Of a DNA stretch of 64,000 bases, positions 7,606 through 56,893 are shown piece after piece (position 1 is the first letter of the stretch; each line of letters starts with the position of its first letter). A program made the translations under genes and the position numbers. The stretch covers positions 372,001 to 436,000 of the forward strand of contig NZ_BAMS01000003.1 of the NCBI RefSeq assembly GCF_000616095.1. The letters are read 5' to 3'. The DNA comes from Sneathiella glossodoripedis JCM 23214 (GTDB lineage: Bacteria > Pseudomonadota > Alphaproteobacteria > Sneathiellales > Sneathiellaceae). Below the pieces are notes generated by a model. The model did not search any database and was not told the origin of the DNA. It worked only from the letters and a program-made list of their open reading frames with translations.

Positions 7606-8336
7606 ATGCAAAGTGAGGCGATTACATCAGCCATTGGCGAAATTATGCCAATTCAGTTGGCGGAATTGAAGGTGGGTCAGGATTGCAAGGCTGTGGGTCT
7701 TGTTATTGTTGATGAAGTAAATGGTTTCGCATCCGTCGGCGCTGGTAATCTGGCGCCGCCGGTTCCCAATGAACAGGTCTCAACAATGGTGGCGGAGACG
7801 AACCGATTGGCTCAGGAGTTTTCCAAATCAGGAAAGCCTATTCTTGCCTTTCTTGATACTCATGAACCGGGAAAGGCTGAGCCGCCATACCCCCCTCATT
7901 GTGAGGCTGGAACCGGAGAGGAAGAGCTGGTTCCTGAACTTAAATGGTTGGAGCGCGATCCACAGACAACGCTTGTTCGAAAAGATTGCATTAACGGATT
8001 TGTTGGAAGCATTGACGCTGACGGAGAAAATAAATTCGTGAATTGGGTAAACAAGAACGAGCTTTCGGATCTTATCGTTGTGGGGATCTGTACTGACATT
8101 TGTGTCATGGATTTCGTGCTTACCAGCTTAAGTGCGAGAAACCATGCATGATGCCAACGCTTCAAAATATACATGTCTATGATAAAGGCTGCTCCACTTA
8201 CGATCTGCCGATTGAGGTGGCTCGAGACGCGGGGCTGCCGGAGGTGGCCGCACATCCACAAAACATTACGCATTATATGGGACTGTACTTTATGGCCTCT
8301 CGAGGGGCTAATCTTGTTGGATCCATATCAGTATAA
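7606..8336 (+). CDS. Isochorismatase/nicotinamidase-like cysteine hydrolase (one frameshift)
   Basis: This is a cysteine hydrolase of the nicotinamidase/isochorismatase/N-carbamoylsarcosine amidase superfamily. The catalytic triad is visible: Asp in IVDEVNGF, Lys in VRKDCINGF and Cys in GICTDICVMDF. A DTHEP...PPHCEAGT segment resembles the metal-binding site and lid of nicotinamidases. The frame breaks at about base 8146, where GG has become G; restoring it gives SARNHGMMPTLQNIHVYDKG and a 243-residue protein. The upstream transporter and hyuAB allow two readings: nicotinamide-type deamidation, or hydrolysis of an N-carbamoyl product of hydantoinase. The PPHC motif favours a nicotinamidase-like enzyme. 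The frameshift is probably a sequence error. Confidence 0.82.
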
Positions 8337-8343
8337 ATCTGGC

Positions 8344-8362
8344 TTATTAATTCAATTAATAA
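8344..8362. repeat. AT-only perfect palindrome after hydrolase gene
   Basis: TTATTAATT is followed by C and then AATTAATAA, a 9-base perfect inverted repeat with a one-base centre, located 8 bases after the hydrolase stop. It could serve as a weak terminator, since TTTTGTTTATTTTTG follows shortly after, or as a regulator site for the phn genes. Its function is not known. Confidence 0.4.
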
Positions 8363-8488
8363 TATCGATTTTGTTTATTTTTGAACTGTTCCTATACTCA
8401 TCATAATTTTCGCGGGTAGACTATCGAAGTCACATAAGCTTCATTTACACCTGCCAGTATGGATAAAGACTGATAGAGGGACAGATTT

Positions 8489-9725
<1,237 letters not shown>

Positions 9726-9740
9726 CCGTTGGGGGGTGGG

Positions 9741-11173
9741 ATGAAGAGCAGGTTTCAAAAACGTGCTGAGTCAATGAGAATTGGCGGTGAAAAGGTTGAT
9801 GCGGATGGAACAATTGACGTGGTCCACCCATATTCTAACGAAGTGATTGGTACCATACCGACTGGACAAAAGGAACATGTTAGACGGGCATTCGAGATTG
9901 CAGCCAATTACAAACCTGCTTTAAGTCGGCATGACCGATATGCAATTCTTCAGAAGACTGCGGATTTACTCGTAGCTCGCAAAGAAGAGATTTCTGATGT
10001 CATTACCGCGGAAGCGGGCTTGTGTAAAAAGGATAGCTTGTACGAAGTGGGTCGCGCCTACGATGTATTCAGTCTTTCGGCACGGTTATGTATAGTTGAT
10101 GATGGAGAAATTTATTCTTGCGATATTACCCCTCACGGTAAAGAGCGGAAAATATTCACGCTGCGAGAGCCGTTGACAGCAATTAGTGCAATAACGCCTT
10201 TTAATCATCCTCTAAATCAGGTGGCGCATAAAGTAGCCCCTCAATTGCAACGAATAACTGTATGGTTCTTAAACCAACGGAGAAAACACCACTGACTGCT
10301 TTGTTGCTAGCAGATATTTTATATGAGGCAGGTCTACCACCAGAGATGTTTTCTGTGGTCACTGGCAGGCCCGAAGATATCGCCGATGAGATGCTTTTAA
10401 ATGAGCATGCGGAACTCGTGACTTTTACCGGAGGAGTTCCCATAGGCAAATATATCGCTGAGAAAGCAGGATATAAACGTAAGGTTTTGGAGCTTGGTGG
10501 GAATGACCCTTTGATCGTTCTTGACGATGCTGATCTCGATAAGGCAAGCGATCTGGCGGTGGCGGGCGCCTATAAAAATTCAGGTCAAAGATGCACAGCG
10601 GTTAAACGTATTCTTGTGGACAACAAGGTTGCCGATGAGTTTGTCAATCTGCTCGCTCAAAAAACCGCACAACTAAAATATGGTGACCCGTTTGACCTTG
10701 AAATGGATATGGGAACCGTGATTAATGAAGCTTCAGCAAAACTTTTTGAAAAACGAGTAAAGGATGCTGTGGCCAAGGGAGCTGAATTGGTTTTCGGCAA
10801 TAAACGCGAGGGGGCGTTGTATTCGCCAACTGTCGTTGATCATGTCCCTTACGACTGCGAACTTGTTCGCGAAGAAACATTTGGACCCGTGGCGCCAATT
10901 ATACGTTTTGAAACAGTTGATGAGGCAATTCGTATATCCAATTCAACGGCATTCGGTCTGTCGTCAGGTGTTTGTACGGATAGCTGGCCACTTATTCAAC
11001 GTTTTATCAAGGAATTGAATGTTGGAACGGTCAATATTTGGGAAGTGCCGGGATATCGGATTGAAATGTCGCCTTTTGGCGGAATTAAAGATTCAGGATT
11101 GGGGTACAAGGAAGGTGTCCTGGAAGCGATGAAGAGCTTTACGAATTTAAAGACTTACTCACTACCGTGGTAA
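9741..11173 (+). CDS. phnY: Phosphonoacetaldehyde dehydrogenase (one frameshift)
   Basis: This is an NAD-dependent aldehyde dehydrogenase that oxidises phosphonoacetaldehyde to phosphonoacetate, the substrate of the PhnA encoded just upstream. Motifs include LELGGNDP with the general-base Glu, and the catalytic Cys in [21 protein letters not shown] and the [13 protein letters not shown] tail are typical of the family. The frame breaks near 10237: one missing base before the [15 protein letters not shown] segment. Restoring it gives 477 residues. The ATG at 9741 follows a GGGGGGTGGG ribosome-binding run; a second ATG at 9774 (MRIGGEKV) is an alternative start. The specific substrate rests on the phnA neighbour, since the fold alone would only say aldehyde dehydrogenase. 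Confidence 0.87.
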
Positions 11174-24858: not shown

Positions 24859-25339
24859 TTTGACCCCCCAAAAGAAATACTTACGCCGGTTAAAGTTATA
24901 CTATCGACCATATAAACGTCTGTATACAATAATGCACTGATTATCTTTTCTTTGTACTGAGAATATTCCAGAGATTCTAGTTAGAAAATCTAAAAAATAT
25001 AATATTTATTGTTCAAATATTAGCGTTAACTATTTTTATTAACGAAATAGTTTTCACAAAATATCGCTAAATGGAATTAACAAAAATCTTTTTATTTTCA
25101 AATATTTAAATAACTTCATATTAATCTATGAGGGAATTAAATATTAATATTATTAATTTATTGGTGCAAAAATTATTTGAGAAAATTAATTACTTCCCCA
25201 TACGCTTTGAGCCCGAACATTAGTTTTACTTATAGATTGACCTACTGAAAAATTAGGTGGTCGGTTGGACGGGTAGTTTGGTTTTTTGCTTATGGTTGAT
25301 CTGAATTTGGTCAGTTTTAATCACCAAGAGGAGGTGACA
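24859..25339. other. Long AT-rich non-coding region upstream of pilus locus
   Basis: This 481-base gap has very low GC (roughly a quarter by eye) in its middle. It separates the divergent glycosyltransferase from the flp pilin and must carry the pilus promoter. Two overlapping dyads stand out: CGTTAA/TTAACG (25024-25044) and AACTATTT/AAATAGTT (25028-25052), which cannot form at the same time. No gene is supported here. Confidence 0.5.
25326..25337 (+). promoter_or_regulatory. Strong Shine-Dalgarno of the flp pilin gene
   Basis: AAGAGGAGGTGA is an almost perfect anti-16S match three to seven bases from ATG 25340. It decides the pilin start against the in-frame upstream ATG at 25286 and suggests high expression of the major pilin. 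Confidence 0.7.
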
Positions 25340-25531
25340 ATGAAAAAGGCGGTTTTTGATTTTTTTGCGGATGAAAGTGGTGTCACATCTGTCGAGTACG
25401 CAATGATGGCTGGTGCTGCAGCAGCGTTACTGGCTGCAGGGGACAATGTAATATACGAGAAAATCAAGTCCTTGATTTCCAGTCTCGACCTTGGAGGGGG
25501 AGCAAGCGGCGATGACTCCAGCGGTGTTTGA
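25340..25531 (+). CDS. flp: Flp/Fap-type major pilin
   Basis: This is a 63-residue type IVb pilin subunit of the Tad system. The short basic leader MKKAVFDFFADES is followed by the processing and hydrophobic region GVTSVEYAMMAGAAAALLAAGD; the Glu-Tyr pair of Flp pilins is present. The hydrophobic stretch is interrupted early by Gly-Asp, and the C terminus is rich in Gly, Ser and Asp, which is somewhat unusual. The next gene encodes the matching prepilin peptidase. The shorter start is chosen because of the strong ribosome-binding site. Confidence 0.88.
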   Translation: MKKAVFDFFADESGVTSVEYAMMAGAAAALLAAGDNVIYEKIKSLISSLDLGGGASGDDSSGV

Positions 25532-25552: not shown

Positions 25553-26077
25553 ATGGTCATATCGTTTATGAATATCGCATGGCACTCGCTGCTTCCCGTT
25601 TATGTCTGTGTTTTACTTGTCGTGGCTTCATGGAGCGACATTTGTGCACGGCGAATACCGAACTGGGTGTGCTTTCATATCCTTTTGTGCTATGCGGTTT
25701 ATAGCAGCGCCGCAAATGAGAATGGCCTTATCGGTAATGGTCTACTAGCTGGGTCGCTAGCACTTGCAGCTTTTTTCCCTTTGTTTCTTTTGAAGGTTTT
25801 AGGGGCGGGGGATGTCAAACTAATTACGGTGATGGCGTTTTGGATTGGAATGGATCACCTAATCTCGTTCTTCGTAATGATATCGGTTATGGGCATACCA
25901 GTTGCGTTTTTTTATCTGATGAGAGGAGTAATCGCTTTGCAATTAGTATTTATTCCTTTGGTTGGGGTCCGAGTCTCCAATGCAATTACAAGAGGCCCAT
26001 CATCAGTACCCTATGCTGTCGCTATATCAAGCGCTTCAATTTATCTGATGCTTCCTCTTATTACAGGGGACGGATAA
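25553..26077 (+). CDS. cpaA: Prepilin peptidase CpaA/TadV
   Basis: This is a membrane aspartic protease of 174 residues that cleaves Flp and pseudopilin leaders. The two catalytic Asp motifs are visible: SWSDICARRIPNW near residue 25 and LGAGDVKLITVMAFW near residue 85 (the GxGD motif). About five hydrophobic segments are seen. Its stop overlaps the cpaB start by one base. Confidence 0.92.
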   Translation: MVISFMNIAWHSLLPVYVCVLLVVASWSDICARRIPNWVCFHILLCYAVYSSAANENGLIGNGLLAGSLALAAFFPLFLLKVLGAGDVKLITVMAFWIGMDHLISFFVMISVMGIPVAFFYLMRGVIALQLVFIPLVGVRVSNAITRGPSSVPYAVAISSASIYLMLPLITGDG

Positions 26078-26949
26078 TGCGCTCTTTAATACTTTTCATC
26101 TGCTGTTTTGTATTTGTGGGTGGGGGAATATTTACAGTCTTTAAGGGTATTTACGAAGAGGTGGGTAAATCTGCAAAACCAAAGTCAGTCGCGATGATTG
26201 ACGTTAAGCTGGCTGTGATGCGGCAGGACTACGAGGCCACAGATATTGTCTCGGCTGCAGAGATTATTTGGTCTGATGCCAGTATTTCATCGGATGATGA
26301 ACAATTTCTTCAATACAATGAATTTATTGACAAGGGTGCAAGCTATATAGCGCTTAAAAGTCCCGTGAAAAGTGGGACTGCTTTGCGCCGAGATGTTGTG
26401 ATTTGGGGCGATAATCGAAATTTCATCCAAGAAGTTCTTAAGCCGTCTCATAAAGCGATATCTATCAATGGAAAGGCGTTTAGTGCACTTCTCCCTCAAA
26501 ATCATCCCGTAGGATCAAAAATGGGAATCTACCTGCGGCCGGATGAACGGACTGCAAAGGTTTTTGGCGGTCTTTACAATAATGTTCCTTTAAAAATTGC
26601 TCAAGGAGTTAGGGTACTTAAATGGGTCGAACATTCAAAGGGCTCGCTATTCCTAACCTTGGAGGTTTTAGATGCAGAGCTTGAAGCGCTTATGCAAGCT
26701 CAAAGGGTGGGGGTGCTTGAAGCTAGTACATCTACATCGCATGATATTGCAACCCGTAATCTGATAGCTCAGGCAGCATTTGATGCCCTGCATTTTAAGA
26801 ATAAAAAGAAAATTTTGGACCACCAACCTAATGTTAAGCGGCACATTATCGTATATCGCGGTGCGGCGGTTGAAAGAATTGACAATGTAGAAACTACTTT
26901 TTCGAAACTTGTTCAAGTAACAAATGACGCAATGGACAAGGCGCAATGA
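26077..26949 (+). CDS. cpaB: Flp pilus assembly protein CpaB/RcpC
   Basis: The product is 290 residues, with an N-terminal signal anchor (RSLILFICCFVFVGGG) and a SAF-like domain. VAMIDVKLAVMRQDYEATDIVSA and SPVKSGTALRRDVV match the CpaB repeats. It is a periplasmic factor that cooperates with the secretin. The ATG at 26077 overlaps the cpaA stop; any longer upstream reading would be inside cpaA and is rejected. It overlaps cpaC by 4 bases. Confidence 0.88.
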   Translation: MRSLILFICCFVFVGGGIFTVFKGIYEEVGKSAKPKSVAMIDVKLAVMRQDYEATDIVSAAEIIWSDASISSDDEQFLQYNEFIDKGASYIALKSPVKSGTALRRDVVIWGDNRNFIQEVLKPSHKAISINGKAFSALLPQNHPVGSKMGIYLRPDERTAKVFGGLYNNVPLKIAQGVRVLKWVEHSKGSLFLTLEVLDAELEALMQAQRVGVLEASTSTSHDIATRNLIAQAAFDALHFKNKKKILDHQPNVKRHIIVYRGAAVERIDNVETTFSKLVQVTNDAMDKAQ

Positions 26950-28286
26950 AAAGGATGACATGGCCCATTTTTTGTATTGTCGTACTTTTAACGACCTTGC
27001 CTGGATTGCTACGGGCGGAGCCGGACAGAATTCGGCTTCACGTCAATGAAGGCAGGTTTTTGACATTAGGGCAAGAGGTCACCGAAATCCTGATCACCAA
27101 TCCAAATGTGGCTGACGTCCAACTGACACAACACAGCGGCTTAATGATTTATGGCAAAAAAACGGGAGTAACGCAGATTGTTGCCCTAACGAAAGGAAAT
27201 CAAGTTCTGTTTGATCACAAGATTGAAGTTATCCCAGATTTGGAACGCTTGAGAAAATTGATTCAACAAGACTTGGGAGAGGCGAGTGTACGGTTAGATT
27301 GGGTATCCGATCGCATGTTACTTTCTGGAAAAGTTGGGAGCGTCGAGCAAATGGAAATGATCTTGAATTTAGCAGGAGGGGCACTTACGGATGAACAGAA
27401 GCTGGTCAATAATCTAAGAGTTTCTGCGGTTGCACAGGTAAATCTTAAAGTGCGGATTATGGAGATGAACCGTCGAGAGACTGAAAATCTCGGCCTTAAC
27501 TGGGACATTCTTTTTAATCCGGGCTCGATGGCGATCAATCTGATTTCTGGTCGAGCACCACTCTTTTCTGACCAAGGAACTGTTATTTCCGGTATAGGTT
27601 TGTTGGAAGGGGGCAGCGCAACAGCTGCTAGAACGGCATCTGGTAATATCAGTGTCGGAGCCGTTTTGGATGCGTTGGCTGAACAAAATCTTGTGACAGT
27701 ACTGGCAGAGCCTAACCTGACCTCACGCTCGGGAGAGACAGCTAGTTTTTTTGCCGGCGGAGAGTTTCCCATTCCCGTTGCTACTACAGATGACAATGTG
27801 CGTATCGAATTTAAACAGTTTGGAGTGATACTGGATATGACGCCAACTGTGTTGGCCGATCAGCGGATCAGATTGCATATAAAACCAGAAGTGAGTGAAC
27901 TGACTTCAATTGGAGCGGTGAAACTTGGTGGGATAGCAATCCCCGGAGTGGCCGCCAGACGTACAGAGGCAACTATTGAACTATCCAGTGGGCAAAGTTT
28001 TGCCGTTGCTGGATTGTTGCAGAACCAGCGAAAAGATTTGATCAGGGAAGTCCCATGGCTTGCAGAAATTGATGTATTGGGTCCTCTTTTTAAATCACGT
28101 GAATATCAGAACTCGGAAACCGAACTCGTTGTGATCGCGACCGCAAATATTGTGGAGCCAGTTGATCAAGATATATTTAAGGATCCTGCTGGTGAGGCAT
28201 ATCAGGACGGTGCAGTAATTTATCCAAAACATCCTGGAGGGTTAATAGGACCGAGAGGACTGACACTCATGGAGGTACACGATTGA
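26946..28286 (+). CDS. cpaC: Tad pilus secretin CpaC/RcpA
   Basis: This is an outer-membrane secretin of 446 residues with a signal peptide (ending near LLRAEP). The N-terminal BON/CpaC domain is RLHVNEGRFLTLGQEVTEILITNPNVADVQL. The secretin core contains VLAEPNLTSRSGETASFFAGGEFPIPVA and LELVVIATANIVEPV-like C-terminal sequence. It forms the outer-membrane channel for the pilus. It overlaps cpaD by 4 bases. Confidence 0.95.
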   Translation: MKRMTWPIFCIVVLLTTLPGLLRAEPDRIRLHVNEGRFLTLGQEVTEILITNPNVADVQLTQHSGLMIYGKKTGVTQIVALTKGNQVLFDHKIEVIPDLERLRKLIQQDLGEASVRLDWVSDRMLLSGKVGSVEQMEMILNLAGGALTDEQKLVNNLRVSAVAQVNLKVRIMEMNRRETENLGLNWDILFNPGSMAINLISGRAPLFSDQGTVISGIGLLEGGSATAARTASGNISVGAVLDALAEQNLVTVLAEPNLTSRSGETASFFAGGEFPIPVATTDDNVRIEFKQFGVILDMTPTVLADQRIRLHIKPEVSELTSIGAVKLGGIAIPGVAARRTEATIELSSGQSFAVAGLLQNQRKDLIREVPWLAEIDVLGPLFKSREYQNSETELVVIATANIVEPVDQDIFKDPAGEAYQDGAVIYPKHPGGLIGPRGLTLMEVHD

Positions 28287-28894
28287 TGCGCCAATTTCTC
28301 TTTTTAACTTTTGGTGCTTTAGTTGCCGTACCATTGATGGGGTGTGTCGGTATTAGTTCTAAAAAAAATGCTGCAGATTACTTTGCTCCGCAACGATTTA
28401 CTGACTTGCGGTTTGTTTTGAAGACGTCTGAATTCAAGAGTTGTTTGATTGAGAATTTAAGTCGGCCTGAATGTGTCGTCAGCGTAACAAATAAATTGGA
28501 AGACTTGCATCAACATAACATCGAGTATGTTCTGACTCTCCCCGTTGTGTCTTATGATGATCATAAAAGAGGTGAATTCTTAACTTTCTTCGAAAATCTA
28601 GGAATTAAACCAAGACAATTACAATACAATACTGTTCTAAATGGCGCTGGCAAGCGACTGCAAATCACCGAATATATTCCTCAACTCTTTTTACAAACCT
28701 GTATGACGAAGCTAAGAGCGTATAAGGTCGGTTGTGCGGTGTCTCAGAATAGAGCCCTCTCACTGGTGCGACAGACGGAGCTGTGGAAGGCCGCTGAGAC
28801 CACTAATACCGGAGGAGTGAATCATACTGGTGAGACGGGCCAGCATTGGACGACAAAAGAAAATCGCGTTAGAAATTCTGAGGTCGTAAAATGA
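28283..28894 (+). CDS. Probable CpaD-like pilus lipoprotein
   Basis: The product is 203 residues, with a lipoprotein signal peptide whose lipobox is VPLMGC near residue 21. The mature part contains no strong motif; CMTKLRAYKVGCAVSQNRALSLV near residue 150 resembles the C-terminal part of CpaD proteins. Assignment rests mainly on its position between cpaC and cpaE, where CpaD is expected to act as secretin pilotin/stabiliser. It overlaps cpaE by 4 bases. Confidence 0.65.
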   Translation: MMRQFLFLTFGALVAVPLMGCVGISSKKNAADYFAPQRFTDLRFVLKTSEFKSCLIENLSRPECVVSVTNKLEDLHQHNIEYVLTLPVVSYDDHKRGEFLTFFENLGIKPRQLQYNTVLNGAGKRLQITEYIPQLFLQTCMTKLRAYKVGCAVSQNRALSLVRQTELWKAAETTNTGGVNHTGETGQHWTTKENRVRNSEVVK

Positions 28895-30096
28895 AAAATC
28901 TTATCGGGGATCGTTTTTTTAGTCCAGCGGAGCTTGGAGATGGTCTAGCGGCTGCAGTTTTCCTCAAAAATAGTTCAGATATAAAAAGTGCTCGGCGTTT
29001 TTTTAAAGACGAAGTGGATTTGAACATTGAATTTATGCAAGGGGGGATCAATACAGCAATTAAATATTTTAGAGCCAAAAAATCACCTGCGGTTGTTGTG
29101 AGTGATATCAGTAACGAGGAACTGCCAGCCTCGCGAATTCAAGAGTTAAGACAGGTATGTCTGAGTGATTGTCGGTTCATCGCAATTGGTGATATTGATA
29201 GCATCTCCCTTTACAGACAATTGAAAGATTTGGGAGTAGATGAATATTTCACAAAACCTATCCCGTTATCACAGCTGAAAACTAGACTAAAGGCAATTTT
29301 AGGTGGTGAAGCTCCAAGGTCTCCGCGAAAAATTGGAGCCAGAAATATTGGGATACTTGGAGCGGCAGGAGGCGTGGGGACGACTTCAATTGCGTGTTCT
29401 GTAGCAGATATTCTGGCACAACATTATCGACGCAAAACTCTGTTATTGGATATGCAGGAAAATAGCCCGGCAGCCTCCGCCTGTTTCAACAGAACTAGAA
29501 ACAATGGCTTGGGCGTCCTATGTTCTAATCCCAACCGTATCGATAAACTGTTGTTCTCGCGCAATGTGGAAAAATTGAATGATCGACTGGATTTATTGGT
29601 GAGTGGCGTAAAAGCAGGAAGAATGATTGATGAATTGATAGTTCAGGCAAGTCACGAATTCCCATATCCAATAAATGCTGCGACAAAGGATATGTGCGGT
29701 TGGTCAGCAGCAGGTTGTTCGATAGATGAGTCTCTCTATAAAGCAGCAGTTAAATATAAAAGCTATGAGTTCATGTTTCTCTCCTCAGCGCTCGCGATGC
29801 AAAGAAGAAGTGGAGGTCAACTAAGTTCAATTCTCGTTCGTTTACGAGATACTCTAAAAGAACAAGAAGACCAGCGTAAACTCGTGCGATCGTTAGTGGC
29901 CGAAGGAAAATCAGCAGCAACAGTAATACTGGTTTTAATAGTAGTTTTACTAACGTTTCTATTGATGACTAACCCTTATCAAGCGCGCTTTTTTCTTGAG
30001 GATGAAGTTGGCAGAGAAATGGTTGGGTATTGTCTATTAAGCTTGGTCTCGGGTTTCATTGTTATTCATATAATTACGGGAGGTAGCCGTGAATAG
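28891..30096 (+). CDS. In-frame CpaE-TadB fusion created by a deletion (TadA/CpaF gene lost)
   Basis: Residues 1 to about 263 are CpaE-like: an atypical receiver domain, then a MinD/ParA-type ATPase with deviant Walker A GAAGGVGTTSIA near residue 153 and TLLLDMQEN. After EFPYPIN the sequence switches to the C-terminal half of the TadB membrane platform: ALAMQRRSGGQLSSILVRL, VRSLVAEGKSAATVI, and two hydrophobic segments. The C-terminal third of CpaE, the whole TadA/CpaF secretion ATPase and the N-terminal half of TadB, together expected to be about 2 kb, are missing. The joint is in frame at about base 29680. This is a genuine deletion or an assembly collapse. Confidence 0.85.
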   Translation: MKNLIGDRFFSPAELGDGLAAAVFLKNSSDIKSARRFFKDEVDLNIEFMQGGINTAIKYFRAKKSPAVVVSDISNEELPASRIQELRQVCLSDCRFIAIGDIDSISLYRQLKDLGVDEYFTKPIPLSQLKTRLKAILGGEAPRSPRKIGARNIGILGAAGGVGTTSIACSVADILAQHYRRKTLLLDMQENSPAASACFNRTRNNGLGVLCSNPNRIDKLLFSRNVEKLNDRLDLLVSGVKAGRMIDELIVQASHEFPYPINAATKDMCGWSAAGCSIDESLYKAAVKYKSYEFMFLSSALAMQRRSGGQLSSILVRLRDTLKEQEDQRKLVRSLVAEGKSAATVILVLIVVLLTFLLMTNPYQARFFLEDEVGREMVGYCLLSLVSGFIVIHIITGGSRE

Positions 30097-30996
30097 TTGG
30101 TTTTTATTCGCGGGTATGGGCTTTCTATGTGTTGGCCTCGTTTTGTTTTTCATTGCTATATGAGTCGTAAGAGAGAGTTGTTGTTCTATCGGTTCTCGAA
30201 ACTAAAGGGACTTACGGAAGACAAGTATGCCTTGAACAATACTAACTCCGGGGGGTATCGGGTACTCAAAAAAAGTCTAATAAACAATAAATCTAAAGCC
30301 AGTATTTTTGCGGATATTTATATTTACATCCGGAGGGCAGAAAGTTTACCCGAAAGCTTTGAATTGTATGAGAGAGCAATAGGTGCGTTAAGCACGGGTG
30401 TAATTTTTTCCTCATTTTCGTTAGCGACTGGCCTATTTGATGAAAGTATTTTATCGCAGCTAGGAGTTGTTCTGGTGGGCTGTTTCTGTGGCCCCATTAT
30501 CCTCGCCAATGCCAACTTGCGCTATCAGCGATATAAAAGTCGAAAGTTTGATCAATCTGCGACTGATGTGATCGATTTCCTGCTTCTAGGTGTTGATACA
30601 GGGCTGAGTATTGATAAAGCGCTTTTGCAGTCGAGCGTTGCGATGCGTGAGTTAAAACCTTGGATGTCTAGAGAACTCGAACTGACAAGTAAAGAATTAG
30701 CGGTATTACCTGAACGTGAACAGGCATTTGAAAATCTAATTCAGAGAACGGGGTCGAGTATATTTTCAACTCTTAAAGCGCATATTGTCTATGGCGAAAA
30801 ACATGGGACTGCAATAGGGGCATCATTAAGAGCGGTGGCGGCTGAGGCTAGACAGAACGCGTTGATGGTTGAGCAAGAAAAAGCAAGAAAGCTGCCTGTC
30901 TATTTAAGTATACCGGTTATGTTTTTGATTTTACCGCCTGTCATTATCATTTCTGCAGGACCAAGTATTGTCCAGCTTTCACGTTCCATACCTTAG
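30089..30996 (+). CDS. tadC: Tad pilus platform protein TadC (probable frameshift)
   Basis: This is the second inner-membrane platform protein of the Tad machine. A GTG at 30089, overlapping the tadB stop, begins MNSWFLFAGMGFLCVGLVLFF, a fitting TadC first membrane segment, but that frame stops at about 30163. The frame one base back then continues with YMSRKRELLFYRFSKLKG to the end. One missing base near 30155-30162 joins the two into a 302-residue protein. The core has DVIDFLLLGVDTGLSIDKAL, HIVYGEKHGTAIGASLRAVAAEAR and a final double membrane segment with PVMFLILPPVIII. Confidence 0.82.
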
Positions 30997-31006
30997 TGAG
31001 ATATTG

Positions 31007-31786
31007 ATGAAAACAACTTTCTTAATGCTGGTGATATTATCGATCTTGGGAGGCTGTGCCCATTTCCCGATAGGTTCAGAGACGGAGAATGCAATAGAAG
31101 CTGACCCAATAAAGCTAGCGAGATCTTTAGCTGAGAAAGGGGCCGTTAGGCCCGCGCTAGAGGTTTTGCGAAAGGCGGCAATGGCAAATCCATTAGACCA
31201 CACACTGAAAGCTGAACTCGCATGGTTATATTACAAATCTGAGGAATATGAACGGGCTCATGAAAGCTTTGCGGGATTGCTGGCAAGCGGACACCGGAGC
31301 TGTTTCATACTGACGGGTGCGGGCGTGTCATTGATTAAACTGAATGAACATGCAAAAGCTGTGCTCGTTTTTGAAGAATGTCTTGCGTTGGAAAGTTCTA
31401 ACAAAGAGGCGAGAAATGGGCTTGCGTTCGCTGCTACCTGGATTGGTAATTACAAGCGCGCACAACAATTATATTTTAAGTTGATATTGGATGAACCAGA
31501 AAATCTACATTACCGAAGCAATTACGCTGTTTCTCTGATTTTGGACGGTAAATATCGTGCCGCTGTTCAGGAGTTGTCTGGTTGGATAAGTCACCCTCGG
31601 TCGACTACTCAGCATAGGCAAAATCTTGCATTTTCATACGCAATGCTTGGAAATTGGTCAGCAGCGAGAAGCATGAGCGAAAGAGATTTGCCGCCGTCCT
31701 TAGTGGAACAAAATATGAGTTTCTACCGGTATTTACACAGATCAGGGAATAGAGGTGAAGTGCGTAGTGCTTTGCTAGCACAATGA
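31007..31786 (+). CDS. tadD: TadD-like tetratricopeptide lipoprotein
   Basis: The product is 259 residues from ATG 31007, with lipobox LSILGGC near residue 15. TPR-like repeats follow from about residue 40 (ALEVLRKAAMANPLDHTLKAELAWLYYKSEEYERA and two more). TadD proteins assist secretin or pilus assembly in the periplasm. An earlier in-frame start at 30968 lies inside tadC and lacks the signal peptide at its beginning, so it is not used. It overlaps tadE by 4 bases. Confidence 0.82.
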   Translation: MKTTFLMLVILSILGGCAHFPIGSETENAIEADPIKLARSLAEKGAVRPALEVLRKAAMANPLDHTLKAELAWLYYKSEEYERAHESFAGLLASGHRSCFILTGAGVSLIKLNEHAKAVLVFEECLALESSNKEARNGLAFAATWIGNYKRAQQLYFKLILDEPENLHYRSNYAVSLILDGKYRAAVQELSGWISHPRSTTQHRQNLAFSYAMLGNWSAARSMSERDLPPSLVEQNMSFYRYLHRSGNRGEVRSALLAQ

Positions 31787-32228
31787 GTAACAAGAACTCT
31801 AAATTTCTGAAGCTTATTCGAGAATACAAAGGAAGTGTTACTCTCGAGTTTGCAATTATTTTCCCAGTGTTTGCAATGTTGCTTGTTCTAACATTAGGAC
31901 TAGCAACAATAGTTGCAAAGAAATCCGCATTATTTTGGGCTGCCACAACCGTTTCAATGGGCGTCTCGAAGAATATCAGCATAACACCAGAATTGTTCCG
32001 TAGCCATCTGTTAACTGCTGTGAACACGCGAAGAGTGACCCTGATTGCACCTCAAAATTTACAAGTATTTTATCATTCATTTGAGGGAAATGAAGGATCA
32101 TAGCCTTTCGTGTTGTATGGGATTTCGGCGACAATTTATTCCCGACTTTTGATTTTGTAGACTCATTATACAGCTCGGAGGAGCTTGTCGTTTATTTCCG
32201 TCAAACACAGGGAGCAAATGGTGATTAA
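31783..32228 (+). CDS. tadE: TadE-like pseudopilin (one frameshift)
   Basis: This is a minor pseudopilin with a basic leader and the hydrophobic processing region GSVTLEFAIIFPVFAMLLVL. The frame closes at 32103, but a one-base loss near 32095 (GG instead of GGG) hides a natural extension, IIAFRVVWDFGDNLFPTFDFVDSLYSS..., which ends at 32228. The restored product has 148 residues. It overlaps the next TadE/F gene by 11 bases. This is another example of the homopolymer-loss pattern of the window. Confidence 0.8.
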
Positions 32229-32763
32229 GTCGCTCTATAAATTGATGAAAAATGAAAGTGCGAATGTGGCGGTTGAAGCCGCGGTTATATTTCCAATGAT
32301 TGTTTTATTAATTTTCGTTCTATTAGATTTTAGCCGTTATTACACGGCATCACAAAACCTGAACAACCTATCCGCCACGCTCTCGCGACACCTGGCATCT
32401 TTAAATAAAGTTAGTGAGAATGATCTGCTTTCAGTGCAGGCGTTAATTCATGACAACTCCGCTTCATTGGATCTAAAAATATTCTATCAGATCAAAATTA
32501 TATCTCTAAGTGGTTGGGGTGAAAATGGTGCTGATATTCTAGTGGATACAATCTTGGGTGGTGCAGACTGTGGAAGCGGTATTATCGAACAAGAGCTCAT
32601 AGATAATAAAGTACGTGGTTTCGTGCCTACGCAATATTTTGTTGGTGTTCGTTTTTGTGCAATCCCACAATATCAATCGTTTATCAGTTCCCTCAATTTT
32701 TTGCTTAAAAAGGGAATTTTCGTTGAAACCATCATATATTCGCCACGGACTGGTTGGAAATGA
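32218..32763 (+). CDS. Second TadE/TadF-like pseudopilin
   Basis: The product is 181 residues from ATG 32218. After a short basic leader, ESANVAVEAAVIFPMIVLLIFVLLDFSRYY is the TadE-like cleavage and transmembrane segment. The remaining domain contains cysteines likely paired outside the membrane (GGADCGSG and VRFCAIPQ). TadF is the expected identity by position; E/F assignments are not separable by eye. It overlaps tadG by 4 bases (ATGA). Confidence 0.78.
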   Translation: MVIKSLYKLMKNESANVAVEAAVIFPMIVLLIFVLLDFSRYYTASQNLNNLSATLSRHLASLNKVSENDLLSVQALIHDNSASLDLKIFYQIKIISLSGWGENGADILVDTILGGADCGSGIIEQELIDNKVRGFVPTQYFVGVRFCAIPQYQSFISSLNFLLKKGIFVETIIYSPRTGWK

Positions 32764-33998
32764 GTAATCGGTTACGTGTTCATAAGACTAAACAATTCCT
32801 AAAAGGAGAGGAAGGGGCGCTCGCGGTATGGTTCGCTCTTACATTTGCACTTTTTATTGGTGCTGTTGCTGTAGCAATAGACTTTATGCGTTTTTATGAA
32901 ACGCGGGGAAAGCTTCAGTCTATCGCGGTTTCTGCTGTGCAATTAGTATCGGCTAATTCTTCATATACTGATGGAGAGACACTGAATAAAATGGCTGAAG
33001 ATTTTGTCAATTCGCAGGTTCAATTCCATATAACGTCAGATATAGAACTTAGTGCTTTTTTATTGGAAGAGATTTCAGATACCTCAAAGCATGGCCACAA
33101 GATAACATTGCAGGCCAGTTTGCCCTACACATATATTTCAGTTGTCGGCATTAATCGACAGTTTCAATTTAATGTAGAAGTGAAATCAGAATTTAAGCCA
33201 ACAGAAGCTGATGTGGTATTAGTTTTGGACAATTCAAACGCTTTATTGTCCCAGCCATTGCAAGATACAGTCAATTTCCTTCAGAGCCAATTTAACAAAC
33301 AATCGGGCTTCGGCAATCAATTGCGATTAGGTGTCGTGCCAATGGCATCGGAATTTGTTAACATATCTCCCAATTCCAACTGGACTGATAACCCGGCAAG
33401 TCGTATTGGGTGCGTCAAGCGCAGGAAGGACGTTGCAGGAACTGATTTTACATTACCCGCGGACAATTTATTTCCAGCTTTAAGTAATGCTAACGTGATT
33501 GGTATTCAAAGTACCGAGGCGGAAACTTCAATTAGGAAAGGCCTTAAATGTCCGGCTCTACGCTTACTTCCACTTACTTCGGACTGGGGTCACATTGTAC
33601 GAGAGTTTTCAGTTCCTCAGTTATATCCCAAGTTTATATTAGAGCGTGGCCTGTTATGGGCGGGACGAATGCTTGCTCCAGAATGGGAAGGGGTGTGGCG
33701 AGGACAGTCATCGGTCAAGGGTTCGCCAAATAAACATATTCTTTTATTGTTGGGGACTGAGATAGGGAATGTGCGACAGTCTGCACGAGATTTCGTCCAT
33801 GTGTGTGAATTGCTGGCCTCAAATAGGATGAAACTTTGGGTGTTGGACCTTTCCAATGACGGCGAAAATTTGAACGCCTTTCAGAAATGTAGTGCGCTTG
33901 CAGGTTACAAGTCGGTGCTAAATCAGGAAGAGTTTAGGTCTGCAATCGCAGATTTCAGCCAGATTTTTGCGAATTACAGTATTTCTCACCTCGAATGA
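32760..33998 (+). CDS. tadG: TadG-like protein with von Willebrand A domain
   Basis: The product is 412 residues from ATG 32760. The N-terminal pilin-like segment is GEEGALAVWFALTFALFIGAVAVAIDFMRFYETRGKLQ (the putative Tad domain). A VWA-like domain follows from about residue 155 (EADVVLVLDNSNALLSQPL). The MIDAS-type DxSxS is altered to DNSNA, so metal binding is doubtful. It closes the pilus operon, which ends 20 bases before the convergent DUF1853 gene. Confidence 0.8.
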   Translation: MSNRLRVHKTKQFLKGEEGALAVWFALTFALFIGAVAVAIDFMRFYETRGKLQSIAVSAVQLVSANSSYTDGETLNKMAEDFVNSQVQFHITSDIELSAFLLEEISDTSKHGHKITLQASLPYTYISVVGINRQFQFNVEVKSEFKPTEADVVLVLDNSNALLSQPLQDTVNFLQSQFNKQSGFGNQLRLGVVPMASEFVNISPNSNWTDNPASRIGCVKRRKDVAGTDFTLPADNLFPALSNANVIGIQSTEAETSIRKGLKCPALRLLPLTSDWGHIVREFSVPQLYPKFILERGLLWAGRMLAPEWEGVWRGQSSVKGSPNKHILLLLGTEIGNVRQSARDFVHVCELLASNRMKLWVLDLSNDGENLNAFQKCSALAGYKSVLNQEEFRSAIADFSQIFANYSISHLE

Positions 33999-34017: not shown

Positions 34018-34890
34018 TCACCAATCGTCTGGCATAATAAAATGTCTGGCAATTTGCAGAGGAGGGTGAGAGCCGTGCTTGCTGCTTCCAAAGGCAATTA
34101 ATTGAGGTCGTTCGTTCAGATTCACAAGTTTTTCAATTTGCGAATAGTGTGTCAGTTGCTGCCAGTCTGCGTAAACATTTGTTGAAAACCAGTGAAGTTT
34201 AGGTAGGGCAGCAAAGTGAGTGGGCATGTTTTTAAAGTGCCGGGGCAGTTCGCCGACACTAAGCCATATTTCTTTCTGGCAATTGGGGTTTACTCTTGCA
34301 GGTAATTTTATATCGGTTGTATTGGACCGACGTTTATGAAAGAGGACGCCCTTAACAAAAGGAGATGACTTAACAGGTAGCTCTGGTCGAAGATTTAGGG
34401 TTTTAATAGCGTGGTTCACCATTGGCAGTTGGTGATCGAATAGCCGGGTAAATTTGCGTTTAAGGGTATCTTTTTTTAACGGTCCAACCCAACAGCTCTC
34501 TTGGCTTGTATCGTCGGTGTTTGCGTAGAATTTTACGGCAAGCTCCCAATGGTAGTAGACGTCGTTAAACAAAAAAACCAGATCGAGCTCCCCTATGGTG
34601 TTCCCCTCGTTTCTGATTTGGCGATTTTGGGCTATAATTTGAACATCGGGTAAATTCTTTAACCAAAAAGAGACTAGTGTTTCAAAATAACTGCCCAGAT
34701 TATGCCGCTTCATCAACGCAAGGTCATCGAGAATAATTTCTGGATTTTCCTCAAGCCTTTTAAGTAACTGGTTTGTTCCCTTGTGGTTGCGAAAATCCGG
34801 CTCGGGCAGGTTGCGAGTGAGGAATGGGCTCTTAATGACCCAATGAAGATCTTCAACAACGTGAGGTAAGTAATTTTCCAGTTGGCGCAC
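34018..34890 (-). CDS. DUF1853 family protein
   Basis: The product is 290 residues. The GELDLVFLFNDVYYHWELAVKFYAN segment near residue 130 is the diagnostic core of DUF1853 and looks like a PD-(D/E)xK-type nuclease fold (Asp-x-Val ... Glu-x-x-x-Lys). The function is unknown. It follows the TSUP permease gene by 20 bases and probably shares its transcript. Confidence 0.85.
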   Translation of the reverse strand: MRQLENYLPHVVEDLHWVIKSPFLTRNLPEPDFRNHKGTNQLLKRLEENPEIILDDLALMKRHNLGSYFETLVSFWLKNLPDVQIIAQNRQIRNEGNTIGELDLVFLFNDVYYHWELAVKFYANTDDTSQESCWVGPLKKDTLKRKFTRLFDHQLPMVNHAIKTLNLRPELPVKSSPFVKGVLFHKRRSNTTDIKLPARVNPNCQKEIWLSVGELPRHFKNMPTHFAALPKLHWFSTNVYADWQQLTHYSQIEKLVNLNERPQLIAFGSSKHGSHPPLQIARHFIMPDDW

Positions 34891-38415: not shown

Positions 38416-41065
38416 ATGACAACGGCAAAAGATATTCGATCTGGTTTCCTCAACTATTTCGGCAAAAATGGTCATGAGATAGTTGATAGTTCACCGCTTG
38501 TACCCAGAAATGATCCTACACTGCTCTTCACAAACGCGGGTATGGTGCAGTTCAAGAACGTTTTTACTGGTCAGGAAAAGCGAGATTATAATCGAGCTGT
38601 AACTACGCAAAAATGCGTCCGTGCCGGTGGAAAACACAACGACCTTGAAAATGTTGGTTATACAGCTCGTCACCATACGTTTTTCGAGATGCTGGGTAAT
38701 TTCTCATTTGGTGACTATTTCAAGGATCTGGCGATTGAACTTGCGTGGAACCTGCTCACTAAAGAGTTTGCTCTTCCTACAGAAAAGCTTTTGGTTACCG
38801 TTTATCATGATGATGAGGAGGCCGTTGATTTATGGAAAAAAATTGCCGGACTTTCCGATGATCGGATTATCCGGATAGCAACATCCGATAATTTCTGGTC
38901 GATGGGTGATACTGGACCTTGCGGACCATGCTCGGAAATTTTCTTTGATCATGGCGAAAAAATCCCTGGTGGTCCTCCAGGCTCTCCAGATGAGGATGGT
39001 GACCGGTTTATCGAAATTTGGAATCTGGTCTTCATGCAATTCGAACAGCAAGCGGGAGGTGAGCGTTTGAATTTGCCTCGTCCATCCATTGACACCGGTA
39101 TGGGGCTTGAGCGGATTGCGGCGGTTCTACAAGGTAAGCACGACAACTATGATATCGACTTGATGCGGCGGATTATTGAAGCCTCTGCTGATGCGTCCAA
39201 TGTTTCGGCTGATGGTGAGTTTGCGGTCTCCCATCGCGTAATTGCTGATCATTTGCGGTCTTCATCATTTCTCATTGCGGATGGTGTTCTTCCATCTAAC
39301 GAAGGGCGGGGTTATGTGCTGCGCCGGATTATGCGACGGGCCATGCGTCATGCTCATCTCTTGGGCGCCAAGGATCCGATGGTCTGGAAGTTGGTGCCGA
39401 CTTTGGTCGATGAAATGGGGGCAGCTTCCCAGAGTTGGAGCGTGCCCAATCCCTTATTACAGAGACATTGAAGACCGAGGAAACCCGTTTTAAGGAGACC
39501 CTAGGCCGCGGCTTGAAGTTGCTGGAGGATGCAACCGAAAAGTTGGGTGATAGTGAAGCCCTCTCTGGTGATGTTGCTTTCAAACTCTATGACACATACG
39601 GTTTTCCTTTGGATCTGACAAAGGACATCCTCAGAGGACAGGGGCGTGAGCTTGACGAAGCTGGCTTTGATGCGGCTATGACCAAGCAAAAAGAAGCTGC
39701 GCGTGCCGCCTGGTCCGGATCCGGCGATGCTGCAACTGACAAACTCTGGTTTGATTTGAGTGATAAGTTAAGTGCAACAGAATTCTTGGGGTACCAGACA
39801 GAGTCTGCAGAAGGGCAGGTACAGGCCTTGATAGTGGATGGTAAGGAAGTTCCTTCTGTAACGGAAGGGGATGACGTCATGGTGATACTGAACCAGACCG
39901 CATTTTATGCGGAATCTGGTGGCCAGGAAGGTGATTGCGGCGACCTGGTGAATGAGAACGGCCTTAAAATTGATGTTACCGATACTCAGAAAAAAGAGAA
40001 CCTTTTTGTTCATGTAGGAAAGGTGCTTCAAGGCTCCGCCAAAGTCGGAGATGTCGTTAATACACAGGTGAAGAAGGAGCGTCGATCACGACTCAAAGCT
40101 CATCATTCTGCTACTCATTTATTGCATGAGGCGCTTCGTCAACGCCTAGGTGATCATGTAACGCAAAAAGGATCTCTGGTCGCGGAGGACAGGCTTCGAT
40201 TTGATATTGCACATCCAAAGCCAATTAGCAGTGAAGAATTGCGGCAGGTAGAAAAGGATGTGAATGACCGTATTCGCCGAAACGCTAAAGTTGAAGTGCA
40301 TCTAACTACACCCGAGGAGGCAATTAAGGCCGGTGCTATGGCCCTTTTTGGGGAAAAATATGGAGATGAGGTTCGTGTAGTTTCCATGGGCGGTGTGGAG
40401 CCTCGAAAGGGGTAGGCCGATCATATTCAACCGAACTTTGTGGCGGTACACATGTGGAGCGAACTGGCGATATTGGCTTGCTTAAAATTGTGAGTGAAAG
40501 TGGTCTTGCCGCTGGTGTTCGGCGTATTGAGGCTGTCGCGGGAGAAGCGGCCCTAGATTATATTAACGAGCGTGAGGGCTTACTTAACAGCGCAGCAGAA
40601 GCGCTTAAAGCGTCTCCTGCAGATTTAGCCTCTCGCGTACATGCGTTATTTGAAGAGCGCAAAAAGCTTGAAAAAGAACTCAAAGAAACCCGTAAAAAGC
40701 TTGCTACGGGTGGTTCTCAAAACGCAGCGGCAGTAGATACCGTTGCGGGACATAATTTTGTGGCTCGCGTAATTGGTGATGTGCCCCCTCGTGACTTAAA
40801 GCCAATGGCTGATGAAATAAAAGCTCAGATTAAGTCTGGTATAGTGGTTCTGATCGCTGATAATGACGGAAAGGCATCCATCGTAATTGGGGTTACAGAT
40901 GATTTGACACCTGACGTGAACGCGGTCGATCTTGTTCGGCTTGGTTCAGAAGCACTTGGAGGCAAGGGCGGCGGCGGACGACCTGATATGGCGCAAGCAG
41001 GTGGACCCAATGCTTCGGCTGCCTCTGCTGCAATTGAAGCAATCAAGGCTGCAATCGTAAGTTAG
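38416..41065 (+). CDS. alaS: Alanyl-tRNA synthetase (two frameshifts)
   Basis: This is an essential class II aminoacyl-tRNA synthetase. The catalytic core shows [21 protein letters not shown] and [19 protein letters not shown]; the editing domain has [11 protein letters not shown] and CGGTHV; the C-terminal C-Ala domain ends in [12 protein letters not shown]. Two single-base losses break it. Near 39427 a base (probably T) is missing, restoring [17 protein letters not shown]. Near 40411 GGGG should be GGGGG, restoring [17 protein letters not shown]. With both restored the protein has 883 residues, the normal length. As alaS is essential, the breaks must be sequence errors. Confidence 0.95.
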
Positions 41066-44923: not shown

Positions 44924-45957
44924 ATGTCAGAAATGAATAAACAATGGCTGCTGAAATCCCGCCCTCACGGGGAGCCAACACTGGACAATTTTGAATACGC
45001 AGAAACACCTGTACCTGAGCCGGGTGAAGGCCAGATGCTGCTCAAGACGATTTATATGTCACTTGACCCTTATATGAGGGGGCGGATGAATGATACCAAA
45101 AGCTACGCGGCTTCGGCACAACTGGGTGATCCAATGTCAGGCACAGGTGTTTCTGTGGTTGTAAAATCAAACCTGGATGGTTTCGCTGAAGGTGAATATG
45201 TGGTTTCCCAAACCTGCTGGCAGTCTCACAGTCTTTCAGACGGGCAGGGTGTCATGAAGGTTGATCCAAAAAATGCTCCTATTTCGACGGGTGTTGGTAT
45301 TCTTGGTATGCCTGGCCTTACCGCTTACGCGGGTCTTCTTGACATAGGCAAGCCAAAAGAAGGCGAAACTGTTGTTGTGTCTGCAGCTTCAGGGGCAGTC
45401 GGATCTATCGTCGGACAGATCGCAAAAATCAAAGGATGTAAAGTGGTCGGTGTCGCCGGTTCCCCAGAAAAATGCGCTTACGTAGTGGATGAATTGGGTT
45501 TTGACGAATGCGTTAACTACAAAGACGCGGATTTTGCTCAAAAACTGGCGGCTGCGTGCGACAAAGGTGTAGATATCTATTTTGAGAATGTTGGCGGAAT
45601 TGTTTTTGATACAGTCTTTCCGTTGATGAACGACTTTTCGCGAATTCCACTCTGCGGCCGTATAGCTAATTATAATATGACAGGCGATCCGGAAGGCCCC
45701 AATAAACTACCTGCCTTTTTTGGCAGATGCTGGTAAAACGTATCATGCTTAGAGGTTTTATAAGCTTTGATCACTATGACCGTTTTCCTGATGTTGTCAG
45801 GGATCTCGGTGGTTGGATTCGCGAAGGCAAGGTCAAATACAAGGAAGATATCGTACAGGGAATTGAAAATGCACCAGAGGCGTTCCTGGGGCTTTTGAAA
45901 GGTAAAAATTTCGGCAAGCTGCTGGTACAGGTTTCCGACGATCCGACACGCAGCTAA
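44924..45957 (+). CDS. Zinc-independent MDR NADP-dependent oxidoreductase (one frameshift)
   Basis: This is a medium-chain reductase of the leukotriene B4 dehydrogenase/curcumin reductase type, without a zinc site. Motifs are YMSLDPYMRGRM, GMPGLTAYAGLLDIG and the nucleotide-binding VSAASGAVGSIVGQIAKIKG. The frame breaks near 45716-45723: one base is missing in the TTTTTTGG run, which would join LPAFFGQMLVKRIMLRGFISFDHY. The restored product has 344 residues from ATG 44924, normal for the family. It follows the CoA ligase gene and may reduce an enoyl or enone intermediate. Confidence 0.87.
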
Positions 45958-54620: not shown

Positions 54621-56893
54621 TTAAGCAATATACCCGGCTTTGGAAAGAGGTAATTCCCTGATTCGTTCACCTGTTGCCGTGAATAAAGCATTGGCAAGCG
54701 CTGGTGCGATGGGCGGCGTGCCCGGTTCTCCCACACCACCAAGAGGTCTGCCTGAGGGAGCTAAATGAACATCAATCTGAGGCGTGTTTGCTAGTCTGAT
54801 CATTTCGTAGTCTGGAAAGTTTTCCTGTTCAACTTGCCCGTTTTCAACAGTAATCTCACCAAATAGCGCAGCACTTAATCCAAAAATGATCCCACTTTCC
54901 ATCTGAGATACTACACCATCAGGTTCAGAACTTCACCACAATCTATGACGCATGTGACCTTATGCAGGGTGATTTCTTTGTCTGGGCTGACGCTGATTTC
55001 AACGACCTGTCCGACGATTGATCCAAAGCTTTCGTGCAACGCGATACCTCTGAAGTGTCCATCTGCAGCAGGTTCTTTCCAATTACTTTCTTTTTCCAGT
55101 CGGTTTAAGACTGCCAAAAAATCTTTGCTATCTGAAAGGTGGAGGCGACGAAATTCAATTGGGTCTATTTCCGCTTTGGCGGCAAGTTCGTCCATGAAGC
55201 ACTCGGTAAAGAAAGCGTTGTAGGAATGTCCGACGCTCCGCCAGTAACCAATAGGAACCTGGACAGGGGTTGGAAAGTGCTCCATCAGCTTATGAGGGAA
55301 TTCATAAGGGATATCTGCTGCCCCTTCCACCGTCGTGTTATCTGGCATATCAGCACCGGCAAACGGTAACATACGTTGCACGAACGCTCGGGAGATGGAG
55401 GGACTGGCAACTTTATTATGCCATGCCTGTACTCGCCCTTGAGAGTCCAGGGTCGCCTCAAATTTTGCTAACGCTGCGGGACGATACATGTCATGCTGCA
55501 TATCATTTTCTCTTGTCCATATCAGCTTAACAGGTCGGCCCTTAAATGCTTTGGCAAAATTGAGGGTCATCGAAACACAGTCAGTTTCCACTTTGCGGCC
55601 AAAGCCTCCGCCAAGGTAAGTATTGTGGACGCTGACATTCTCGGCATCTACTTCAGCTATTTCCTGGGCAATCCAGCTAATTAACGTGTTAGATTGGTTA
55701 GGTGTCCAGACCTCAACGGACGTATCCGTCACAATCGCGGTGCAATTCATAGGCTCCATACAGGCATGTGCGAGAAATGGGACTTTATAGGTTGCTGTAC
55801 TTTTACTAGCACCGGAGTTGGACAGCACAGATTTTGCATCACCTTCTTCAGCGTAGGAGCGTCCGTCATCCAACTTGAGTTGCTCTTCAAATTCGTTGAA
55901 TATACCGTCAGTGCTGAGAGAGGAATTGATGGTATCGTCGAAAGTAACGGGTAATTGTTCGACTGCCTGTTTGGCGCGCCAAAAACTGTTGGCGACTACG
56001 GCAACAGCATTTTCAAGTTTAACGGCTTTCAGCACGCCCGGCATATTTCCAATTTTGCTCTCGTCCCAGTGTTTAACTGTTCCGCCGAAAGTCGGGCAGA
56101 TTTTAACCGCGGCATAAACCATATCGGGAAGTGAGACATCTACGCCAAACTCGGCTTCTCCAGTAACTTTGGCAGGAATGTCAATTCTCTGTTGAGAATA
56201 TCCTATAACGCGACGCTCTGAGGGTTGTTTTAGCGATACTTCTTCCGGGATATCCAGTTTCGAAGCCGCTTGTGCGAGCTCACCATAGCTAGCGGAGTTA
56301 TCGCTGCTGTCGTGTATAATTTTGCCGGCTTTAGCATAACATTCAGATGCAGGGACTGACCAGCGATCAGCCGCCGCTTGGATCAGCATTTGGCGAGCGG
56401 TCGCACCTGCCTGTTGCATTGGAAGCCAGAAATTGCGAACGCTTGTACTTCCTCCTGTCGCTTGAATACCTAGTAGGGCGCCAACTTTCTTCATTGCCCA
56501 AGCGCCGGCAGTCTCTTCTCCTCTATGATGTCCATCTCCAAATGGCAGACTGTCTTGAATAATGGTGAAATTTGCATAGACGGCGTCGATCGGTGCCTGT
56601 TCCGGTGTAATGCCTGCGACGTCAACTTCCAACTCCTCTGCGACAAGCATGCATAACGCCGTGTGTATTCCTTGACCCATTTCAGCCTGTGAAATGGCGA
56701 CACTGATGTTTCCGTTGCTCGAAATTTTAACCCATGCGTTTAGGGTAAATTCATTTGTACCTGCAGTAGAAGCGTAAGGCGCTCTGTCGGGTACGTCATT
56801 TCCTCCAAAAGCATAGGCAACAGCCAAACCACCACCAACAAGGCCGCCTGCAATCAGGAATTTGCGACGTGTCAATAAAGTTGACTTTGCCAT
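54621..56893 (-). CDS. Molybdopterin-binding subunit of IorB-type oxidoreductase (one frameshift)
   Basis: This is the large catalytic subunit of a xanthine-oxidase-family enzyme such as isoquinoline 1-oxidoreductase or an aldehyde dehydrogenase. It has a Tat signal (LTRRKFLIAGG), the molybdopterin-binding blocks AEMGQGIHTALCMLVAEEL, GGGFGRKVETDCVS and GGVGEPGTPPIAPALANALF with the conserved Glu. The frame breaks near 54922, where CC should be CCC on the coding strand; this restores CGEVLNPDGVVSQMESGIIFG. The full length is then 757 residues. It lies one base downstream of the iron-sulfur subunit gene and works with it. Confidence 0.9.

Follow-up and report, generated by a model that had tools for sequence, protein, structure and literature searches.

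The window, a 64,000-nucleotide stretch of the Sneathiella glossodoripedis JCM 23214 genome (C10:372001-436000), carries a second Tad pilus locus in which a single open frame joins the N-terminal part of CpaE (TadZ) to the C-terminal half of TadB, and in which the gene for the motor ATPase, cpaF (tadA), is missing. This arrangement is probably the product of a real and recent deletion in a redundant locus, at the cost of the motor, the docking ATPase and half of the platform. The deletion would span ~2.3 kb, with both ends in LDLL-coding stretches that match between cpaE and tadB; it would have taken the 3' part of cpaE, the whole of cpaF and the 5' half of tadB, leaving one open chimeric frame. 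Its product would retain from CpaE the folded N-terminal receiver-like domain and no more than a fragment of the MinD-like ATPase domain, and from TadB the T2SSF domain and the C-terminal helices but not the N-terminal membrane part. The second locus would be dispensable given the first, which lies about 97 kb away and has a TadA, TadB and TadC of its own.

The chimeric frame and its locus

The chimeric frame encodes 401 aa from an ATG start. HMMs built from relatives aligned its residues 23-244 with CpaE positions 21-242 of 409 (E 9e-60) and its residues 226-398 with TadB positions 142-314 of 319 (E 2.5e-39). Pfam placed T2SSF (PF00482) at residues 233-358, covering profile positions 2-124 of 125 with 41.8 bits, and ahead of it there were weak, partial matches to ParA/MinD-type families which ended at about residues 239-254. 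The CpaE and TadB homologies overlapped at residues 226-244, both including the motif LDLLV, and at this site the CpaE of several relatives reads RLDLL and the TadB of several reads EALDLLVRG. Since LDLLV fits CpaE and TadB alike, the joint likely lies within these codons (Table 1). The first-pass annotation had described CpaE fused in frame to TadB and a missing TadA, and the open frame, the relatives' HMMs and Pfam all confirmed it; the joint it reported is there in the sequence but had been placed at about 29680, some 80-95 bp too far downstream. Absent from the locus are CpaE beyond about position 242 of 409, the whole of CpaF, and TadB from position 1 to about 141 of 319, in agreement with the earlier description of the lost parts as the end of CpaE, all of CpaF/TadA and the first half of TadB. 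The corresponding stretch measures 2232-2389 bp in 16 relatives; the loss is thus on the kilobase scale, as anticipated, and slightly larger than the 2 kb or so then estimated.

In terms of domains, the chimera has the N-terminal receiver-like domain of TadZ/CpaE, recovered by both the CpaE HMM (residues 23-244) and AlphaFold2, and the cytoplasmic T2SSF domain of TadB (CpaG), recovered by PF00482. The MinD/ParA-like ATPase domain of TadZ/CpaE is incomplete, everything after about position 242 of 409 being gone, and the membrane part that precedes T2SSF at the N-terminus of TadB is missing, only positions 142-314 of 319 having been matched. AlphaFold2, run on an alignment of 14 rows that mixed two unrelated families (CpaE and TadB), folded residues 21-136 into strands alternating with helices (block pLDDT mostly 73-94), gave values of 58-80 for most of the TadB part, and left the MinD fragment (residues ~141-240) at 37-58 without strands. 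The same stretch in the intact CpaE of a relative (G008) was predicted with strands and block pLDDT mostly 64-91, from a shallower alignment of 6 rows. Going by these models, the ATPase fragment of the chimera is probably not a working domain. As the chimera lacks a whole ATPase domain and the TadB membrane part, the second locus is most likely unable to assemble its pilus by itself.

The genes of the locus are ordered flp, tadV, cpaB, cpaC, cpaD, [cpaE-tadB], tadC, tadD, tadE, tadF, tadG (Table 1). Among the components expected of a complete Tad locus, the Flp pilin, the prepilin peptidase, the secretin and TadE/F were found, with the reservations that flp scored under the curated cut-off and that tadE is short, and the TadA/CpaF motor ATPase was not found within the locus. 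The start of tadC and its first hydrophobic membrane helix (30089-30160) lie in a different frame from its body, as judged by hydropathy, and there is an 8-bp overlap between the tadC start and the tadB stop, which is also the case in G008 and G022. A search for the tail of tadE in another frame returned a match at chance level only (E about 3). Adjoining the locus on the minus strand (window 34021-34890) is a gene for a DUF1853 protein (PF08907), with homologues at the equivalent place in G004, G008, G022 and G003.

Table 1. Genes of the second Tad locus and the joint in the chimeric gene, in window coordinates
Feature	Coordinates	Strand	Evidence
flp, Flp/Fap pilin	25286..25531	+	Pfam PF04964, E 5.7e-7, 29.7 bits (curated cut-off 32.2)
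tadV/cpaA, prepilin peptidase	25553..26077	+	Pfam PF01478, E 1.1e-15
cpaB/rcpC, named by gene order	26077..26949	+	ORF; tblastn matches at the equivalent place in some relatives; no Pfam match (26080-26946 searched)
cpaC/rcpA, secretin	26946..28286	+	Pfam PF00263, E 2.5e-39; 44-57% identity to second-locus copies of genus relatives
cpaD, named by gene order	28283..28894	+	no Pfam match
chimeric gene, CpaE (TadZ) N-terminal 58% fused in frame to TadB C-terminal half	28891..30096	+	ORF, Pfam, relatives' HMMs
joint, codons 233-237 (LDLLV)	29587..29601	+	fits both CpaE and TadB of relatives; ~2.3 kb absent
tadC, second platform protein	30089..30996	+	Pfam PF00482, E 1.1e-9; hydropathy
tadD, TPR protein	30968..31786	+	Pfam TPR_19, E 3.1e-13
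tadE, pseudopilin	31783..32103	+	Pfam PF07811; 106 aa vs 132-180 aa in 17 relatives
tadF, pseudopilin	32185..32763	+	Pfam PF07811, E 3.3e-8
tadG	32754..33998	+	weak Pfam Tad/VWA matches under cut-off; tblastn matches in relatives

The single TadA and the quality of the assembly

The genome (3.63 Mb in 12 contigs, rated 100% complete) contains a single T2SSE-type ATPase of the TadA/CpaF kind, at C10:301946-303877, outside the window. It belongs to the first Tad locus (C10:297-306 kb, L002), which shares with the second the order cpaA-cpaB-cpaC-cpaD-cpaE-cpaF-tadB-tadC but, unlike it, has cpaF (645 aa), separate cpaE and tadB genes, and an evolution rate about as in relatives. When the second-locus CpaF of a relative was searched against all contigs, the only match above the cut-off was this first-locus copy; two further matches, at E 0.04-0.07, were at chance level and were rejected as candidates for a stray tadA. 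The genome search recommended in the first-pass annotation thus yielded one TadA, that of the first locus, and none belonging to the second. As a separate observation, a change of frame near the 3' end divides the first-locus tadC (L002 10892-11873) as well, and a whole tadC is therefore missing from both Tad loci in this assembly.

A collapse of the assembly had been among the options raised for this locus: the cell would then have an intact cpaE-cpaF-tadB order, of which 2.3 kb had been dropped in assembly. In the 29 genes of the window that were compared with those of G004, the closest relative (10,872 codons), there were 8 frame breaks (8 in ~32.6 kb of coding DNA, about one per 4 kb), whereas the controls had none (0 in 10,433 codons in the reverse comparison, 0 in 4,773 with G022 and 0 in 4,816 with G003), and at all eight breaks the window had net one base fewer than G004. 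Two of the eight had affected alaS (window 38416-41011), which is split over three frames and is the only recognisable full-size alanyl-tRNA synthetase gene of the genome, the remaining match being to a short editing domain. A living bacterium could hardly do without alanyl-tRNA synthetase, so the alaS breaks are taken as sequence errors. Frame breaks relative to G004, again each of net one base fewer, were also seen in five more genes (window 7606-11170, 44924-45954 and 54627-55651), namely those for an isochorismatase-type protein, a phosphodiesterase-type protein, an aldehyde dehydrogenase, a zinc-type oxidoreductase and one unnamed product.

This abundance of single-base errors, together with the retention of cpaF by all the relatives that could be judged (16 of 16), is what an assembly error has in its favour. 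However, the errors seen are single missing bases, of another kind than a kilobase-sized loss, and the missing cpaF was on no other contig. At the two deletion ends the DNA of relatives shares at most 9 identical bases in register, with no repeat long enough for a collapse, and 35 of the 36 G004 ORFs of at least 150 aa were matched in the window, with no sign of a further hole the size of a gene. A deletion at the same site is also present in the sister lineage, G004. Given this record, an assembly error at the joint is unlikely, and we infer that the deletion is real. Microhomology between cpaE and tadB may have been the route by which the deletion arose, but the few bases shared at the two ends in relatives count against it.

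From the break rate, about 2 breaks would be expected in the 8.7-kb second Tad locus, and 2 candidates were seen, the tadC start and the short tadE. As this count matches the background error rate, both breaks are no evidence of decay, and they were rejected as such; more generally, single-base frame breaks in this assembly are not to be taken as biology.

The locus in relatives and the timing of the probable loss

The genus search comprised 24 genomes, the window's own (G000) and 23 others. In every one of the 16 relatives with a contig spanning the operon, cpaE, cpaF and tadB were intact, with cpaF of 446-467 aa. Four of the other seven (G012, G013, G019 and G023) showed only part of the second locus, at contig ends, and G004, G011 and G015 gave no second-locus match in protein searches, in which G004 and G011 were matched at the first locus alone and G015, a genome 66% complete, at neither. 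The same neighbours flank the second locus in G000, G008 and G003, and in G022 as far as its stretch reaches. As its conserved flanking genes show, the second locus is vertically inherited. The loci of relatives such as G008, G022 and G003 (L066, L064 and L072) are accordingly orthologous to that of the window, with the same flanks and the remaining genes in the same order, and differ from it in that cpaE, cpaF and tadB are three whole genes. The presence of cpaF in all 16 judgeable relatives, together with the shared neighbours, indicates that it was once present and has been lost in the window's genome. The relative G002 has, on another contig (G002:C12:300-309 kb), a third Tad-type set of matches close together, to a secretin, CpaF and TadB.

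G004 is the closest relative by its 88% identity in a 694-aa flank protein, the highest among the genomes searched. The interval flanked by the homologues of window 24858 and 34917 measures 1938 bp in G004, compared to 10059 bp in the window, and this remnant (G004:C2, L171-L172) contains one 201-aa open frame that starts like Flp and ends with the last third of TadG. The window's flp and tadG proteins matched it by tblastn with E 6e-6 and 1e-12, respectively, and the TadG of 13 relatives also matched it at E 1e-3 or better. As in the window, a deletion in the same locus has left an in-frame chimera; unlike in the window, it is far larger and has joined flp to the tail of tadG. G004 thus carries an independent deletion in this locus. 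Of the three options put forward initially, the evidence most favours a genuine deletion by which the locus was inactivated, given the cpaF of 16 of 16 judgeable relatives and the deletion of G004's own; loss of function is a likely consequence of what is missing.

For 6 of 6 genes, the second-locus protein of the window's genome came out as the most diverged one when set against the similarity of six near relatives to each other; for the TadB half, the value was 0.283 versus 0.431 among relatives. In the first locus, cpaC, cpaD, cpaE, cpaF and tadB were within or above the range of their peers and tadC, whose frame is broken in this genome, was just under it (0.732 vs 0.746-0.771), in a comparison covering six of seven genes (cpaB, with one row empty, was left out). 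On a tree of five concatenated second-locus proteins from 15 genomes (1350 columns), the terminal branch of the window's genome measured 1.60, versus 0.25-0.82 in seven compared relatives. Fast evolution as proof of inactivation was nevertheless rejected, since G014 and G017, with intact cpaF, are likewise far from the rest on this tree. The sites invariant among relatives were kept to varying degrees: 88 of 94 in cpaC, 16 of 21 in cpaE, 12 of 19 in tadB, 12 of 15 in tadC, 11 of 14 in tadD and 17 of 30 in tadG.

No in-frame nonsense codon was found in the ~1811 codons of the open frames of the second locus. With a nonsense-to-missense opportunity ratio of 0.057, this absence allows at most ~52 neutral replacements at 95%, fewer than the excess seen, which suggests that most of the change came under some selection, before any inactivation, and that inactivation, if any, was late. 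The loss itself would likewise be recent, because the remaining genes read without nonsense codons. That the cluster consists of pseudogenes dead for a long time, tadC and tadE included, could be argued from the tadC start in another frame, the short tadE and the fast divergence, but the two breaks are just what the assembly error rate predicts for 8.7 kb, the tadC of the first locus is broken as well, and the frames are free of nonsense codons; we regard this as the least credible of the readings weighed. A recent deletion remains the preferred account of the chimera, and it amounts to ordinary partial gene loss in a redundant locus, with no departure from that pattern. If real, it adds another duplicated surface-fibre system that is being lost via internal deletions, part-way here and nearly completely in the closest relative.

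Comparison with known Tad systems

Searched against the named genomes, the chimera returned no match, and CpaC returned mostly alphaproteobacterial records with 33-44% identity. In the plasmid collection, 103 records matched, all at <60% identity and none covering 80% of the query. In the class search, where scoring was limited in most genomes to 4 candidates each, 163 of 385 genomes matched and, among the matches listed, only the window's own row spanned both halves. A literature search, exact phrases included and limited to the library searched, found no paper on a CpaE/TadZ-TadB fusion.

In published systems, TadB and TadC are described as having one T2SSF domain each and TadZ as a polar hub (PMC6668835), and mutating predicted contacts is reported to have stopped phage infection (PMC11300603). 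Deletion within a tad locus has also been described, for flp1 in P. multocida outbreak isolates (PMC12735514). Of the three initial options, that of an ATPase elsewhere serving the locus stood in so far as such an ATPase does exist, ~97 kb away in the first locus, but no sign of service to the second was found. The second locus would in that case supply the pilin, the secretin and the pseudopilins of a pilus driven by the TadA (and TadB/TadC) of the first locus, with the chimera as a possible combined docking and platform protein. The one complete TadA of the genome, the lack of nonsense codons in the remaining frames, the whole T2SSF domain of the chimera and the report of Tad systems split over two clusters, namely the Myxococcus Kil system and S. 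meliloti flp-2, whose secretin locus lies apart (PMC10934763), are in line with such a hybrid machine. Against it, the MinD half is cut short and without a predicted fold, the N-terminal membrane part of TadB is gone and 7 of its 19 invariant sites are changed, S. meliloti flp-2 has an ATPase of its own, and the chimera occurs in no other genome among the matches listed for the 385 class genomes. We consider such a machine improbable, and even less probable the stricter version in which the chimera is a working single-chain docking/platform protein and the first-locus TadA powers in trans a second pilus whose locus has no motor gene; if true, Tad motors would be capable of working with a platform other than their own.

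The nearest published parallel is the S. meliloti flp-2 cluster, which, as described in PMC10934763, is like the locus of the window a second Tad locus without some of its genes, possibly completed from elsewhere. Unlike the locus of the window, it has kept its own ATPase gene, cpaF2, and it is the secretin genes that are absent from it (PMC10934763).
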